Made by a program: the position numbers and the translations under genes. A DNA stretch of 37,130 nucleotides from a virus, in IMG/VR virus record IMGVR_UViG_3300050119_000118, positions 1 through 37,130 of that record; one strand, given 5' to 3'. Below the pieces are notes generated by a model. That model was given only the letters and a program-made list of their open reading frames with translations. It searched no databases and was not told where the DNA came from. This document shows positions 4,259 to 16,067 of this stretch, piece after piece (position 1 is the first letter of the stretch; each line of letters starts with the position of its first letter).

Positions 4259-6247
4259 ATGAAAATCGTTCAATTCCTGCGGCTGCTGGTCGCGGGCGCG
4301 CTGCTGGCTTGCTCGGCTCCCGCCTCGGGCCAGGTCTTTACGTCTCTGACGTGGGGCGTCAATCGCGCGTCGCCGTCGGCGGCGCCCGTCTGCCTGATGA
4401 AAAATGGGACTTGTCTCATCCAAATCGGCACGGCGAATCTTTTAACCGGAGCTTGGACGCCCAGCTCTGGCGGCTCCGGCAGCCCGGTTGCATCGGTCGG
4501 CAGTTCCAACGGCTCATTGACAGTCAGCCCGACGACGGGACCCGTCAATTTGCTGCTCAATCCCGCGCACGCGAATTCTTGGTCTTCCCCGCAAACTTTC
4601 GGGGTCGGCGACATTGTTTTGAACGGGGCCGGAACGGGCTGCGCCGGATTTGCGAGCGGCGTTCTGGGGCCAATTACCTGCCCTACGGGCGGCTCCGCGT
4701 ATCCGTCCTTTGACTTGCGCGCCATCTTCACGGCGGGCGGAACTGATAACGGCCCTCTATCCGTGGCTTGGATGGCGACAAATCCGAGTGGGCTTTACTC
4801 CCTCAATTCGCCAAATACGGTTGGCGGCGTGGAATATTACTTCTCGTCACCGCTTGATCTTGCCAACTTCGGTCTTAACATCGACTGCGGCGGCGGTGGT
4901 TTCCGCGCCGACAATGTCCATCTTGTTTTCGCGGCGGGCGTCGATGGTGTAATCGAGGATTGGGGCTCTACCTCCGATGTTCGCGGGTGTTCGATTATTT
5001 CCCTGGGGATATTTGCGAGTTCAGGGCCGATCACGTCCGGTATCACGGTGATCCCAGCCGTTACTTCCTTTGCTGTGACAGACCTAACGGTCCCATTTTT
5101 CGCCGCCGGTGACGGCGTAATTATGCTGGGCGGAACCAAAACCGATGTCGCATTGGCGACGCCGCCCGGCGCCTATCTAGCCTCGGTCAGTGGAGCGACG
5201 GTAACTCTCGCGACGGGATTCGCCGTTACCACGACGCCCGTTTACGAATCCGCGTATCTTTTCCGCCTACCGGCCGCCAAGGCCTCGACGGTGACGACGA
5301 CCACCGGTAGCACTACCGTCACCACGACGGGAGGTCCATATCTATGGGTTCCGGGCGACCTGATTTGGTCTGACGCATTCCCCTATGGCACGACCGTTTT
5401 GACGACGCTCGGCTCTTTAGGCGCTCAAACGCTCACTATGACCAACGCCTATATGGACGCGACGGTTCTCGCCACGAAAACCCACACTGCCGGCAGTGGG
5501 AAGATGTGGTTGATCCCCGCCGCGTTTAAGCGGCGGGCGTCCGGGGAGAGCCATAATGTCTATGAGATCGGCTGGCCGACCGGTATGCAAATGTCATGCA
5601 CTAGTGGCGGAAGCGACAATTGCGACAATAGCCGGGACTACGGCTTCGGAAGCGAGCGCTCCATAGTCGGGCGATGGGTTGGAGGCAACAACACGGGATC
5701 GTCGCTTTCTATTGGAGCGTTTTATAACACCAGTTTGCGTTTTGGTATATTAGAGGGAGGGTCGCTTGGAAGCTATTATTTCGGTGAGACTTACGAGGGA
5801 TACGAAAGCGGGACTGCTTATACTGACGTTGTGCTTAACTGCAACGACAGCAACAATTCTACGTTTTTCGGCTATTATCAAAATAGCCCAAATGGAAGTT
5901 GCGGAAACTCCACCGACCCATACAATACCAACCCCTCGAATCCCGCTGAGGGTGGGACAGTTAAGGCACTCTCAATAGGGCCAACGTCTGTCTCTATTGC
6001 AGGATTGCCAAGCCTTACTGGCAACGCTTTATCCGGCGCTTTCCTCTACCTCGATGCGTCGGTTGCGGGCGGCTATATTTATAATGTAGTTACGATCGCG
6101 ACACTCAATACTTGCAGCGCATATCCTGGGACAACTCAGGTAATCAGCAATGGCATTGCGTCGCCAACCTATCGCCAAGCGGTATCGACAACGGGAACCA
6201 CAAGGCAATTGGTGTTTTGCGACGGCACTAGTTGGACTTATCACTGA
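4259..6247 (+). CDS. Tail spike/fibre-like protein with lipoprotein-type signal peptide
   Basis: 662 residues, preceded by GAGG six bases before ATG. Residues 1-18 look like a bacterial lipoprotein signal: positive start (MKIVQFLR), hydrophobic core, and lipobox L-L-A-C with Cys18; a Sec cleavage near residue 25 is an alternative. The remainder is Gly/Ser/Thr/Asn-rich and beta-prone, with Cys scattered, as in receptor-binding spikes. Two beta modules (about residues 270-340 and 345-400) resemble the repeated modules of other virion proteins here. GC falls in the last third (from about 5690), suggesting an acquired receptor-binding end. A phage tail protein with an export signal is unusual; a surface-displayed or exclusion role is possible. 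Confidence 0.7.
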   Translation: MKIVQFLRLLVAGALLACSAPASGQVFTSLTWGVNRASPSAAPVCLMKNGTCLIQIGTANLLTGAWTPSSGGSGSPVASVGSSNGSLTVSPTTGPVNLLLNPAHANSWSSPQTFGVGDIVLNGAGTGCAGFASGVLGPITCPTGGSAYPSFDLRAIFTAGGTDNGPLSVAWMATNPSGLYSLNSPNTVGGVEYYFSSPLDLANFGLNIDCGGGGFRADNVHLVFAAGVDGVIEDWGSTSDVRGCSIISLGIFASSGPITSGITVIPAVTSFAVTDLTVPFFAAGDGVIMLGGTKTDVALATPPGAYLASVSGATVTLATGFAVTTTPVYESAYLFRLPAAKASTVTTTTGSTTVTTTGGPYLWVPGDLIWSDAFPYGTTVLTTLGSLGAQTLTMTNAYMDATVLATKTHTAGSGKMWLIPAAFKRRASGESHNVYEIGWPTGMQMSCTSGGSDNCDNSRDYGFGSERSIVGRWVGGNNTGSSLSIGAFYNTSLRFGILEGGSLGSYYFGETYEGYESGTAYTDVVLNCNDSNNSTFFGYYQNSPNGSCGNSTDPYNTNPSNPAEGGTVKALSIGPTSVSIAGLPSLTGNALSGAFLYLDASVAGGYIYNVVTIATLNTCSAYPGTTQVISNGIASPTYRQAVSTTGTTRQLVFCDGTSWTYH

Positions 6248-8571: not shown

Positions 8572-8880
8572 TCACATGTGCCCCAATAACCATTGGCCGA
8601 CGCGCGAGTCCGCGAAGGCGAAAAACAGCCGATGTATCAACGCAAACCCCAGCGCAATCGCGAATAGGGCTAAACATCCGGCCCCAATTGCCAGCGCGGC
8701 GCCGATTGCCATTTCAAAGCCTGCCATTATCATTTTTGCTTCCTTTATTTTTCCGATACTTAGCGCGGGAATTCCCGCACCCGGTTCTGGTGCGGGCTTA
8801 GGTTCGTTCTCGCTATCGTCCCGCGATAGCTTCCCCATAGCCTGCCGCGCCAACCTCTCGCGGTCGGCGGCGCGCGTCAT
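8572..8880 (-). CDS. Membrane protein, last gene of the leftward early operon
   Basis: 102 residues. A charged, Pro-rich N-terminal half is followed by a long hydrophobic segment (about residues 52-85, Ala/Ile/Gly-rich), probably one or two membrane passes. It overlaps the preceding gene by ATGA. Function not recognised. Confidence 0.7.
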   Translation of the reverse strand: MTRAADRERLARQAMGKLSRDDSENEPKPAPEPGAGIPALSIGKIKEAKMIMAGFEMAIGAALAIGAGCLALFAIALGFALIHRLFFAFADSRVGQWLLGHM

Positions 8881-12831: not shown

Positions 12832-13677
12832 TTCTTCGACAAGCTTGCCATTATTCGCGACAAGCCAAACATCAGCAGCAACCCCATCTGTGCCGGCACA
12901 CCCAGTCGCAAAGCCGATGCATTTTCCGCTGGAGTCGTATTCCGCGATGGCGATCCACGTTCCCGCTGCAGCTTTGGCGCGCGAGTCGTTGCCCGCCGAC
13001 GCAATGACGCTGTTCGCGCCTTTCGCTTCATTCTTCGTGTAGTCGCCGCTGCTGGCGTTCGTCGCGTAGTCGCCGCTGCTGGCGTTCTTCGCGTAGTCGC
13101 CGCTGCTGGCGTTCTTCGCGTAGTCGCCGCTGCTGGCGTTCTTCGCGTAGTCGCCGCTGCTGGCGTTCTTCGCGTAGTTGCCGCTGCTGGCGTTCTTCGC
13201 GGAGCGGCCGCTGCTGGCGTTCGTCGCGGAGTCGCCGCTGCTGGCGTTCTTCGCGTAGTCGCCGCTGTCAACTTTCGTTTTATCGAACGCCCATTTGATC
13301 GCTTTGGAGATAAACTTCGGCAGGCTCAATTCGGCTTTGATGATGATTGTCGCCGAGGCGATCTTGCTGTCGCCATCATGACAAGCGAGCGTTCCAGAAA
13401 CTTCCACCTCTGCAAAGCGTGAATCAAATGGGTCGTAATATGACCAAACATCAAGCGGGTCTTCGCAGGAATGGAAGCCGCTCTCGCAAATGACGACCGG
13501 GCCTTCATGCGCATAGGATTTTCCGACTTCGAATTGGAAGTAGCGGCATTTTAGGTCTTTGTCGAAGCCTTTGAAGGCAGTGAGCGTCACTAGCTCTTGA
13601 GCCGCGACCGGCGCGGGCGCATCGACAACAGCCTCGACTTCCTTCGGCTTAGCGGCCTTCTTCACTTGCGTCTCCAT
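12826..13677 (-). CDS. DUF7666-like protein with 9-residue tandem repeats
   Basis: 283 residues. Residues 30-135 form a domain resembling a phage family (DUF7666-type) with AFKGFDKDLKCRYFQFEVG, ESGFHSCEDPLDVWSYYDP and 'TLACHDGDSKIASATIIIK'. Residues 144-215 are eight tandem copies of NASSG-x-x-A/T-x, mostly NASSGDYAK, likely a beta-solenoid. Residues 220-283 form a small capping domain. It begins and ends in the same 24-bp linker sequence. The repeat number probably varies between relatives. Function unknown; such repeats often mediate binding. Confidence 0.78.
   Translation of the reverse strand: METQVKKAAKPKEVEAVVDAPAPVAAQELVTLTAFKGFDKDLKCRYFQFEVGKSYAHEGPVVICESGFHSCEDPLDVWSYYDPFDSRFAEVEVSGTLACHDGDSKIASATIIIKAELSLPKFISKAIKWAFDKTKVDSGDYAKNASSGDSATNASSGRSAKNASSGNYAKNASSGDYAKNASSGDYAKNASSGDYAKNASSGDYATNASSGDYTKNEAKGANSVIASAGNDSRAKAAAGTWIAIAEYDSSGKCIGFATGCAGTDGVAADVWLVANNGKLVEEA
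13033..13248. repeat. 27-bp in-frame tandem repeat, eight copies
   Basis: Eight near-identical 27-base units encode NASSGDYAK-like nonapeptides on the minus strand. Copies differ by point changes (for example GRS, GNY and DSAT variants). No spacers exist between units, so this is not a CRISPR. Confidence 0.92.
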
Positions 13678-13698
13678 GGTGGGGCTCCGGGGTTAGGC
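13675..13698. repeat. 24-bp stop / ribosome-site / start cassette, copy 2
   Basis: Identical to 12808-12831. Here it links the stop of the 92-residue protein upstream to the ATG of the repeat protein. Confidence 0.9.
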
Positions 13699-13971
13699 GG
13701 CGTCGCGCAAAATATTCTGGATGATGAGAGCGTCGCCCGTTGGCTTCATCCGACCAGGGCGATAAATATCTTCTCGAAGTCCGATTGGACGTTCATCATC
13801 CGGTCTCCCATCGATAGCGGCCTCATAAATATCAAGTGCTCGATCTAGGGGGATGGATGGATTTACGTTGCTCATTCCGCCCTTGCCGCGCTTCGATTTA
13901 ATGATGGAACGTAGTTCGCCGATGCTCTTTTGGCCTGATTGGGCGATGCGTTTTGCTTCTGCTTTATTCAT
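13693..13971 (-). CDS. Small early protein of unknown function
   Basis: 92 residues from ATG 13971, with ribosome site GAGGA; the start overlaps the upstream stop by eight bases. An earlier ATG at 13995 lies inside the upstream gene without a ribosome site and was not used. The N-terminus is basic (MNKAEAKRIAQSGQKSIGEL), the rest helical with charged turns. No domain recognised. Confidence 0.7.
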   Translation of the reverse strand: MNKAEAKRIAQSGQKSIGELRSIIKSKRGKGGMSNVNPSIPLDRALDIYEAAIDGRPDDERPIGLREDIYRPGRMKPTGDALIIQNILRDAA

Positions 13972-14242
13972 CTTCGTCTTCCTCTTCGCCAACAATTACG
14001 CCAGTCCCGTGGCAATCTGGACACGTCGCCGAATACCATCCGCGCGCATCGTCAGGGACGGGTCCGGGTGCTTCGCGTTCGCCGCGCGTGCGTTTTCCGA
14101 TCTCTCCAGTGCCGTTGCAGCGCCTGCATGTCTGGGGAAAGTCGCTCATGACGTAAGCTCCAAGGCTTGAGAGGATGGCGCCCGCCACGACGGCGGATGC
14201 CTCGATCGGCGGAGGCGCGCGCGTCGCGCGCCGTTTTTTCAT
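13964..14242 (-). CDS. Zinc-binding mini-protein with fused membrane-like N-terminus
   Basis: 92 residues from ATG 14242, which overlaps the previous stop (ATGA). Residues 1-31 are basic then hydrophobic (ASAVVAGAILSSLGAYV) and are nearly identical to the end of the 41-residue peptide at 12685. Residues 32-92 begin with Met (14149) and carry two DnaJ-type zinc motifs, CRRCNGTG and CPDCHGTG, with an acidic tail. The original gene probably started at 14149, which still has GGAG eight bases upstream; a two-base deletion in the duplicated segment put the two in frame. Either start may be used. Zinc-ribbon mini-proteins are common in phage early operons. Confidence 0.65.
   Translation of the reverse strand: MKKRRATRAPPPIEASAVVAGAILSSLGAYVMSDFPQTCRRCNGTGEIGKRTRGEREAPGPVPDDARGWYSATCPDCHGTGVIVGEEEDEDE
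14144..14196. repeat. Direct repeat copy B (fused tiny-gene end)
   Basis: Copy of 12683-12737 lacking two bases. The deletion changes the frame so that the hydrophobic peptide runs into the zinc-binding protein instead of stopping. Confidence 0.85.
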
Positions 14243-14577
14243 GCGTCGCCGGAGCCGTCGCCGTCGCCGTCGCCGTCGCCGGAGCCGTCGCGGTAGCCGG
14301 AGCCGTAGCCGGAGCCGTGGCCGTCGCCGTCGCCGTCGCCGTAGCCGGAGCCGTCGCGGTCGCCGTAGCCGTAGCCGTCGCCGGAGCCGTAGCCGGAGCC
14401 GTCGCGGTCGCCGTAGCCGTAGCCGTAGCCGTAGCCGTAGCCGTCGCCGGAGTCGTAGCCGTAGCCGGAGCCGTCGCCGGAGCCGTCGCCGGAGCCGTCG
14501 CCGTCGCCGTAGCCGGAGCCGTCGCGGTAGCCGTAGCCGTAGCCGTAGCCGTAGCCGGAGCCGTCGCCGGAGCTACC
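14239..14577. repeat. GC-rich minisatellite encoding Gly-X repeats
   Basis: Irregular repetition of six-base units (CCGTCG, CCGTAG, CCGGAG types, plus strand) through about 340 bases. All frames are open because of composition; only the minus frame with a ribosome site and coupling to neighbours is accepted as coding. Confidence 0.85.
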
Positions 14578-14589
14578 CCCGATGGACAT
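14239..14589 (-). CDS. Gly-X low-complexity protein
   Basis: 116 residues from ATG 14589, with ribosome site GGGAG seven bases upstream. After MSIGGSS nearly every second residue is Gly, alternating with Ser, Asp, Tyr, rarely Arg or His (SGDGSGYGYGYGYG...). The DNA is a minisatellite of GCC-GTC/GTA-GCC-GGA type triplets, giving long artificial frames on the other strand. Similar Gly-X proteins exist in other phages; function unknown. Length is probably variable by slippage. Confidence 0.65.
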   Translation of the reverse strand: MSIGGSSGDGSGYGYGYGYGYRDGSGYGDGDGSGDGSGDGSGYGYDSGDGYGYGYGYGYGDRDGSGYGSGDGYGYGDRDGSGYGDGDGDGHGSGYGSGYRDGSGDGDGDGDGSGDA

Positions 14590-14875
14590 TTGCGGACTCC
14601 CATTTCTCGGTCGCGTCTGGCGAGACCTCAGTAACTGAGGTGATCTTGCGGAGGTTGATCTTTTTGACGCGGGCGCCGATGCGCGAACCCTTCGCGGGGC
14701 CTTCGCTCGCGAGGCCGCCGAAGCCACCGTTCGCGCTGCTCCAATAGATGCAATTTCGCGCGTTGGTCAGGGTGATGTTGTCGCCGCTCGTGTCTTTCGC
14801 CCACCCGTAAAAAACACCGCGAAACTCCGTCGTAACCAATACCGGCCGATATCCTTGCTCTCTAAGATCGCTCAT
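14573..14875 (-). CDS. First gene of leftward early operon, DUF6948-like
   Basis: 100 residues from ATG 14875, five bases after a strong GGAGG. Earlier in-frame ATGs (14887 and upstream) run into the operator region and were not used. The sequence 'YRPVLVTTEFRGVFYGWAKD' followed by LTNARNCIYWSS and TSVTEVSPDA matches the pattern of small phage proteins grouped as DUF6948. Its leader contains operator O1, so it is the first gene controlled by the adjacent repressor. Function unknown. Confidence 0.75.
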   Translation of the reverse strand: MSDLREQGYRPVLVTTEFRGVFYGWAKDTSGDNITLTNARNCIYWSSANGGFGGLASEGPAKGSRIGARVKKINLRKITSVTEVSPDATEKWESANVHRG

Positions 14876-14909
14876 ATGTGCCTCCATCGGTTTGTTGCGA
14901 TGAGTGAAT

Positions 14910-14926
14910 GTTTGCATAAGGCAAAC
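14910..14926. promoter_or_regulatory. Operator O1
   Basis: GTTTGC ATAAG GCAAAC: perfect 6+6 inverted repeat, in the leader of the leftward operon, 35 bases before its first ATG. Proposed site for the adjacent XRE protein. Confidence 0.75.
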
Positions 14927-14954
14927 GTAAAGGCAATAGGGCGCGCGAAAATAT

Positions 14955-14971
14955 ATTTGCCTCATGCAAAC
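14955..14971. promoter_or_regulatory. Operator O2
   Basis: ATTTGC CTCAT GCAAAC: one mismatch in the outer pair. Read on the minus strand its spacer is ATGAG, similar to the ATAAG and ATAGC of O1 and O3, so it is inverted relative to them. Confidence 0.72.
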
Positions 14972-14999
14972 CTCTCGGAAATATGTCTTGACGAGCGCG

Positions 15000-15016
15000 G
15001 TTTGCATAGCGCAAAC
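15000..15016. promoter_or_regulatory. Operator O3
   Basis: GTTTGC ATAGC GCAAAC: perfect 6+6 inverted repeat ending eight bases before the XRE start, so occupancy should block that gene's own expression. Confidence 0.75.
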
Positions 15017-15023
15017 TAGAATT

Positions 15024-15275
15024 ATGGAAAACAAACGCGAGAAACACCCATTCGCAATTTATCGAGAACGCCACGGGCTTTCACAGGGGGCGCTTGCGAC
15101 GCTTCTTGGGCGTCATCGCTGGACGATAGCGGCAATCGAAATCGGAATTCGGAGCCCGTCCGGGGAGCTGCTTCGTAAGGCTTCCGAGGTGACGGGGATT
15201 TCGGCTGACAGGGTTCTCAACTGGAGCCCTGGCGCGTCGCCAGCCCACTCCGCGAAACATCCGCGCTCGGCCTAA
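15024..15275 (+). CDS. XRE/Cro-type repressor
   Basis: 83 residues from ATG 15024. Residues 12-66 are a helix-turn-helix of the XRE family: YRERHGLSQGALATLLGRHR (positions 13-32), then WTIAAIEIGIRSPSGELLRK with the usual turn and recognition helix. It has no peptidase or oligomerisation domain, so it is Cro-like in size. A longer frame from 14964 would translate the operators and is rejected. No ribosome site was seen. The three adjacent palindromes are its likely targets, giving autoregulation and control of the leftward operon. Confidence 0.85.
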   Translation: MENKREKHPFAIYRERHGLSQGALATLLGRHRWTIAAIEIGIRSPSGELLRKASEVTGISADRVLNWSPGASPAHSAKHPRSA

Positions 15276-15345
15276 TCGCCCTCAATCAATCTTTCACGGC
15301 GCTTCACTCAGCGCATTGGCTAAACACATGCTTGGAGTAACCAAA

Positions 15346-15606
15346 ATGTCGGACGAAGCGCTAAGCAATTCTCCGGACGGCGGCCATTTGCGGGCTTTCG
15401 TGGAACGGATCGAGCGGTTTGATAAGGCAAAGCGCGCGATCGCGGAAAATGTGAAGGAGATTTATAGCGAGGCCAAGGGCCGTGGCTATGACGTTAAAGT
15501 GCTGCGCAAGCTCGTCGCGCTGCGCCGCGTCGACGAATACCAGCGGCAAGTGGAAAATGAGATTTTGTCGCTCTACCTCACAGCTCTCGGAATGGAGCCG
15601 CTTTGA
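15346..15606 (+). CDS. gapR: GapR-family nucleoid-associated protein (DUF2312)
   Basis: 86 residues from ATG 15346 with ribosome site GGAG. It matches the DUF2312/GapR pattern along its length: LRAFVERIERFDKAKRAIAE, VKEIYSEAKGRGYDVKVLRK, LVALRRVDEYQRQ and a final YLTALGM. In Caulobacter GapR binds over-twisted AT-rich DNA and assists topoisomerases during replication. A phage copy placed among replication genes may help replication of phage DNA or modify host chromosome structure. Its stop overlaps the next ATG (TGATG). Confidence 0.88.
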   Translation: MSDEALSNSPDGGHLRAFVERIERFDKAKRAIAENVKEIYSEAKGRGYDVKVLRKLVALRRVDEYQRQVENEILSLYLTALGMEPL

Positions 15607-16067
15607 TGCAGCCTTGCGCAAATCTCCTGACGCCTTGGGCGTCTCCCGTTCCGCGCGATGAGCGGGAAATCGTCTCGTTCTTTGTCCCTGGAAAGCCGCT
15701 CGCCTACCGACGCGCCGGCACGAACGGGAAGCGCCGATATACGCCCGTCTCGCAAGCCTCCTACATGCGCGCGGTGGGACTGATCGCGTCGCGGGCCTTC
15801 GCGGGAATTGGGCCTCTCCCTGGGCCGCTGCGGATGACGGTCGCGGCCTGCTGGGCCTTCCCTAAGAGCTACACGGCGGCGGATCGGCTGCGGCGGTGCA
15901 TGACCGCTGTTCCTGATGCTGACAACGTGGGGAAGCTGATAGCCGACTCGCTCAACGAAATCGCCTATGCCGACGACGCGCAAATCTGCGAGCTTCACGT
16001 ATCCAAGCGGTTCGGGTTGGTCGCGGGCGTCACGGTTTCAATCGAGCAATTGGAGCCGGCGCGTTGA
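15606..16067 (+). CDS. rusA: RusA-family Holliday junction resolvase
   Basis: 153 residues from ATG 15606. Core features of RusA: FFVPGKPLAYRRAG near the N-terminus, PDADNVGKLIADSLN (residues 103-117) with Asp104 and Asp106, and YADDAQICEL (121-130) with the further acidic residues, equivalent to the catalytic Asp set of the family. RusA cuts four-way junctions symmetrically in a metal-dependent way. Its place after GapR and before the DnaA-like gene suggests processing of replication or recombination intermediates before packaging. Confidence 0.87.
   Translation: MQPCANLLTPWASPVPRDEREIVSFFVPGKPLAYRRAGTNGKRRYTPVSQASYMRAVGLIASRAFAGIGPLPGPLRMTVAACWAFPKSYTAADRLRRCMTAVPDADNVGKLIADSLNEIAYADDAQICELHVSKRFGLVAGVTVSIEQLEPAR

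Follow-up and report, generated by a model that had tools for sequence, protein, structure and literature searches.

The immunity region of phage lambda is arranged as OL-PL...cI-OR-PR-cro, in which operators flank the leftward cI gene. Cro is encoded first in the rightward operon, and the divergent early operons carry exonuclease and annealing functions to the left and replication functions to the right. Some virulent phages of Streptococcus thermophilus have lost the lysogeny module and retain remnants of it; their hosts, operators and proteins differ from those considered here. Among the mycobacteriophages, D29 has a deletion of the repressor segment and is still homoimmune with L5 (PMC3203893), and TM4 has lost the integrase/attP segment and probably the repressor too (PMC3203893, PMC5712189, PMC6550527). 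We analysed a stretch of viral DNA of 37,130 nucleotides (IMG/VR record IMGVR_UViG_3300050119_000118, positions 1 to 37,130; hereafter the window), in which three operator-like sites lie between divergent early operons. Judging from a comparison with a cI-carrying relative, we propose, with a probability of about 0.78, that this array is what remains of a lambda-like immunity region whose operators became fused, and that the deletion of cI made a naturally virulent derivative. D29 and TM4 are likewise virulent deletion derivatives of temperate phages, but their deletions are ~3.3-3.6 kb, whereas that proposed here is ~405 bp, ends in operator half-sites and leaves the fused operators visible.

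The three sites are palindromes of the form GTTTGC-N5-GCAAAC. O1 (GTTTGCATAAGGCAAAC, 14910-14926, plus strand) and O3 (GTTTGCATAGCGCAAAC, 15000-15016, plus strand) match this pattern without mismatch, and O2 (14955-14971, minus strand; ATTTGCCTCATGCAAAC, or GTTTGCATGAGGCAAAT on the minus strand) has one (ATTTGC...). Their centres at 14918, 14963 and 15008 are spaced 45/45, and the asymmetric cores (GTTTGCAT-AAG-, GTTTGCAT-GAG- and GTTTGCAT-AGC-) show that O2 is inverted with respect to O1 and O3. Two exact copies were found in the window, compared with none in 100 dinucleotide shuffles, and in 200 runs of a first-order Markov simulation, sites with one mismatch or none averaged 0.155 per genome and never exceeded 2, compared with three within 107 bp in the window. 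The pattern scan, shuffles and simulation thus bear out the preliminary description, which had reported three palindromes in exact 45-bp steps with the middle one inverted. The whole-window search that it had proposed detected no further site within two mismatches of the pattern anywhere in the 37,130 bp.

The start codon (15024) of a Cro-like XRE protein of 83 aa (15024-15275, plus strand; Pfam HTH_3, E 2.6e-11) begins 7 bp past the end of O3. As in a Cro-type repressor, it is a small HTH protein whose gene opens the rightward early operon, which continues with a GapR-family DNA-binding protein (15346-15606, plus strand; Pfam GapR_DNA-bd, E 2.4e-26), a RusA homologue and a replication protein, and it is presumed to be an autorepressor. 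Pfam detected only the HTH domain in it, and a C-terminal oligomerisation domain was not evident. It had only distant matches (<60% identity) in annotated phages and a single unrelated match, a Coproplasma MAG, in the genome collection; a search of the phage nucleotide collection gave no match. The leftward early operon (minus strand) begins with a DUF6948 protein (14573-14875; Pfam PF22253, E 1.2e-21) and includes exonuclease-like and RecT-like proteins, and the rest of the phage encodes portal, major head, tail, amidase and antiterminator proteins. A Gly/Tyr/Asp-rich hexanucleotide repeat with GTAGCC/GTCGCC units lies beside the switch (14052-14603, minus strand). This GYG-repeat gene breaks short-read assemblies: two relatives, G001 and G016, have contigs that stop within or next to it, so that the switch region is often missing from assemblies.

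A standard sigma-70 scan of the region detected no promoter. As weak consensus matches, we note a candidate PR (TTGACG-N18-CAAACT, 14988-15017, plus strand), which has an analogous TTGACA in the relative described below, and, as the best leftward candidate, a putative PL (TTGCCT-N17-AAACAT, 14908-14936, minus strand). O3 lies within the spacer of the candidate PR and O1 within that of the candidate PL. O1 had been placed in the leftward leader, but is probably more than leader sequence. The predicted start of PR is at or near the ATG of the XRE gene, and its mRNA is possibly leaderless.

The closest locus with a cI gene is that of IMGVR_3300031251_000129 (record G002; locus L004, also listed as L008), which encodes a protein 94% identical to the Cro-like XRE. 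Identical 17-mers are present in L004 at 5484-5500 (O1), 5529-5545 (O2, 45 bp on) and 5977-5993 (O3), marking O1, O2 and O3 as the equivalents of OL1, OL2 and OR1. A leftward CI-like gene of 105 aa, a second small XRE with an HTH_3 domain, is located between the second and third of these; a peptidase domain was not found in its product. An additional full site, GTATGCTACAAGCAAAC, is located at 5909, directly before the start of this gene. By its order of genes and sites, the L004 locus is a predicted OL1-OL2-cI-OR-cro region, the lambda layout, with the same topology, Cro first in the rightward operon and similarly divided divergent operons. L004 thus carries both the cI and the cro of a lambda-like bistable switch; the window has a single XRE gene and no second one. 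Unlike lambda, it has no cI, its OL and OR are fused into one array of 107 bp, and its operators are of the type GTTTGC-N5-GCAAAC. The recurrence of the sites beside a nearly identical Cro-like protein, and their absence elsewhere in the window, agree with the earlier proposal that they are putative operators of the Cro-sized XRE between divergent early operons. The further proposal, that the switch is compact and so differs from lambda with its separate OL/OR, finds no support, because the relative has separate OL and OR around cI and the window has the same arrangement minus cI, joined through O2.

BLAST of L004 against the window gave two segments, 14877-14972 and 14962-15356, which meet inside O2. 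The junction is a 10-bp direct repeat, TCATGCAAAC (14962-14971, plus strand), which forms half of O2 and is the longest direct repeat common to the OL (5536) and OR (5941) sides of L004, 405 bp apart. When one TCATGCAAAC and everything up to the other copy, ~405 bp in all, are taken out of L004, the arrangement of the window results, save that the spacers between O2 and O3 differ by 2 bp in length and by point changes. Compared with its temperate relative, the window therefore has the form expected after a clean repressor-gene deletion at the repeat, provided that the cI-carrying form is the older one. Other small genes replace DUF6948 behind the same PL/OL region in L004 (5440-5500, versus 14570-14875 in the window), which is a module exchange right at the operator. 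In the closest genome (IMGVR_3300036908_000044, G001), which is ~96% identical to the window over large parts, the contig break falls inside the operator region and the locus is incomplete. The ends of the window (1 and 37130) lie ~2 kb apart in G001 (13639-15758), so that the record probably falls short of a full genome.

We envisage that in the ancestor OL1-OL2 was followed by a leftward gene for a small CI repressor and then by an OR-type group of operators with PR and cro. Loss of ~405 bp between the TCATGCAAAC half-site in OL2 and its OR copy would have taken cI together with the operator before it and the flank of OR, so that OL1-OL2 came to lie next to OR1; loss of the integrase would have been a separate event that left a C-terminal relic. 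The Cro-like XRE made from PR would presumably bind O1 at PL and O3 at PR, with O2 midway and shared, and on accumulating would turn down both the leftward DUF6948...exonuclease-RecT operon and the rightward Cro-GapR-RusA-replication operon. While CI and Cro would compete for common sites in the relative, Cro alone would act as a lytic early-gene brake in the window. Without CI or an integrase, normal lysogens are probably not formed and the virus can probably only kill its host. Because its operators are intact, the phage should still be repressible by the CI of cI-carrying relatives, and homoimmunity with them is predicted, which reminds us of D29 with L5. The even spacing would follow from the inherited OL spacing plus the OR spacing of the relative (43 bp); thus the 45 bp between O1 and O2 look inherited and the second 45 incidental. 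Counting against the deletion of cI, L004 is the only close relative with cI at the locus, the contig of G001 being broken there, and on the OR side of L004 the partner of O2 amounts to no more than a half-site (CCTCCC-ATCAT-GCAAAC), 43 and not 45 bp from O3.

Similar arrangements were found at other loci. In four of them, L114, L122, L072 and L048, operator-like palindromes flank a small cI-like gene, and every locus has an operator sequence of its own. The layout is thus general across loci with unrelated operators. The DUF6948 proteins of L114 and L116 are 69% and 71% identical, respectively, to that of the window. In L116, three TGCAT-type operators spaced 46 and 33 bp lie between divergent XRE and DUF6948 genes without cI, and the 33-bp pair matches the OL spacing of the cI-carrying L114. 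A cI-carrying parent of L116 was not found, and it is plausible from this arrangement that L116 is a second, independent cI-less fused array. We suggest only tentatively that phages of this group have repeatedly become virulent by losing cI through operator-to-operator deletion, and that a fused, Cro-only array of three operators is functional and maintained. In L007 (388-450), two TTTTGC/GTTTGC-type operators 46 bp apart lie between divergent operons, with an ERF-type gene to their left, a small HTH-like gene on the other side and no evident cI. L007, like L009, has the look of an independent example; neither entered the argument.

The direction of the change was judged from the integrase. 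The window carries a relic of a tyrosine integrase C-terminus (8740-8880, minus strand), which matched residues 321-367 of the G016 integrase by tblastn (74% identity, E 4.4e-15) and is 91.6% identical to its DNA over 95 nt; the G016 integrase occupies the same slot. The relic starts where the integrase has its presumed catalytic tyrosine, which is Met here, and opens a 102-aa ORF (8572-8880, minus strand) whose first ~47 codons are integrase-like and are followed by apparent membrane-protein sequence. Tyrosine integrases are present in two relatives, G002 (beside the RecT region) and G016, and neither the tyrosine (PF00589) nor the serine (PF00239) recombinase family had a match in the window or G001. 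Integration functions have therefore been lost with a remnant, as in virulent derivatives. A relic of the G016 type indicates that the ancestor was temperate, and with a temperate ancestor, deletion of cI is more likely than its insertion. The relic itself polarises the loss of the integrase, and the loss of cI is polarised by association only. On the other side, L114 (a 41.6-kb contig) has cI without a PF00589 integrase, showing that cI and a tyrosine integrase do not always occur together. Searches with GapR and the replication protein returned families too broad to polarise the cI event.

If the order of events were reversed, the compact three-operator switch would be original, and cI would have been inserted into O2 of the relative, duplicating TCATGCAAAC. 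The simple junction in the window is in keeping with this, since an insertion with target duplication would look alike there; the insertion, however, must have brought a full operator (GTATGCTACAAGCAAAC) and a diverged half-site with matching specificity, cI lies between operators in the four other loci, and the integrase relic argues for a temperate ancestor, so we regard the insertion of cI as unlikely. It is very improbable that the sites bind a host regulator, or that the XRE doubles as the CI of a one-regulator switch, because in the relative the sites accompany cro and cI, they are absent elsewhere in the window, the XRE is orthologous to the Cro of a two-repressor locus, and an intact integrase was not found in the window. 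We give the least credence to a triple operator built for the cooperative or looped binding that the preliminary description had proposed, with selection for its equal spacing: the spacing is indeed exact, and 45-46 bp recur in the OL of L004, in L007 and once in L116, but 45 bp correspond to 4.29 turns and place neighbours ~103 degrees apart, the spacing is not conserved on the OR side of L004 (43 or 68 bp) or in L114 and L116 (33 bp), and the XRE has only its HTH domain.

The proposed deletion of cI is an ordinary type of evolutionary event with an unusually clear scar; what sets it apart from D29 and TM4 is that it is small and has its end points in operator half-sites. Our literature search found no paper on such an operator fusion, which is not proof of absence. 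The locus would show, base by base, how a lambda-like switch becomes lytic early-gene control in one step, with operators as the recombination sites. It predicts a phage that kills freely, yet can be held back by the immunity of its temperate relatives. The locus also cautions that regular operator arrays may be deletion scars and not designed architecture.

A longer ORF for the XRE protein, starting from 14964, was dropped, because the corresponding frame of L004 is only three codons long before its stop (ATG CAA ACT TGA). Pairs of similar sites in L006 and L010-L014 were set aside as lying in unrelated contexts, several inside coding repeats. In L011 (10015-10182), six ATTTGC-N5-GCAAAY palindromes form two groups with 21-bp steps inside a coding repeat (CSEQMGV).
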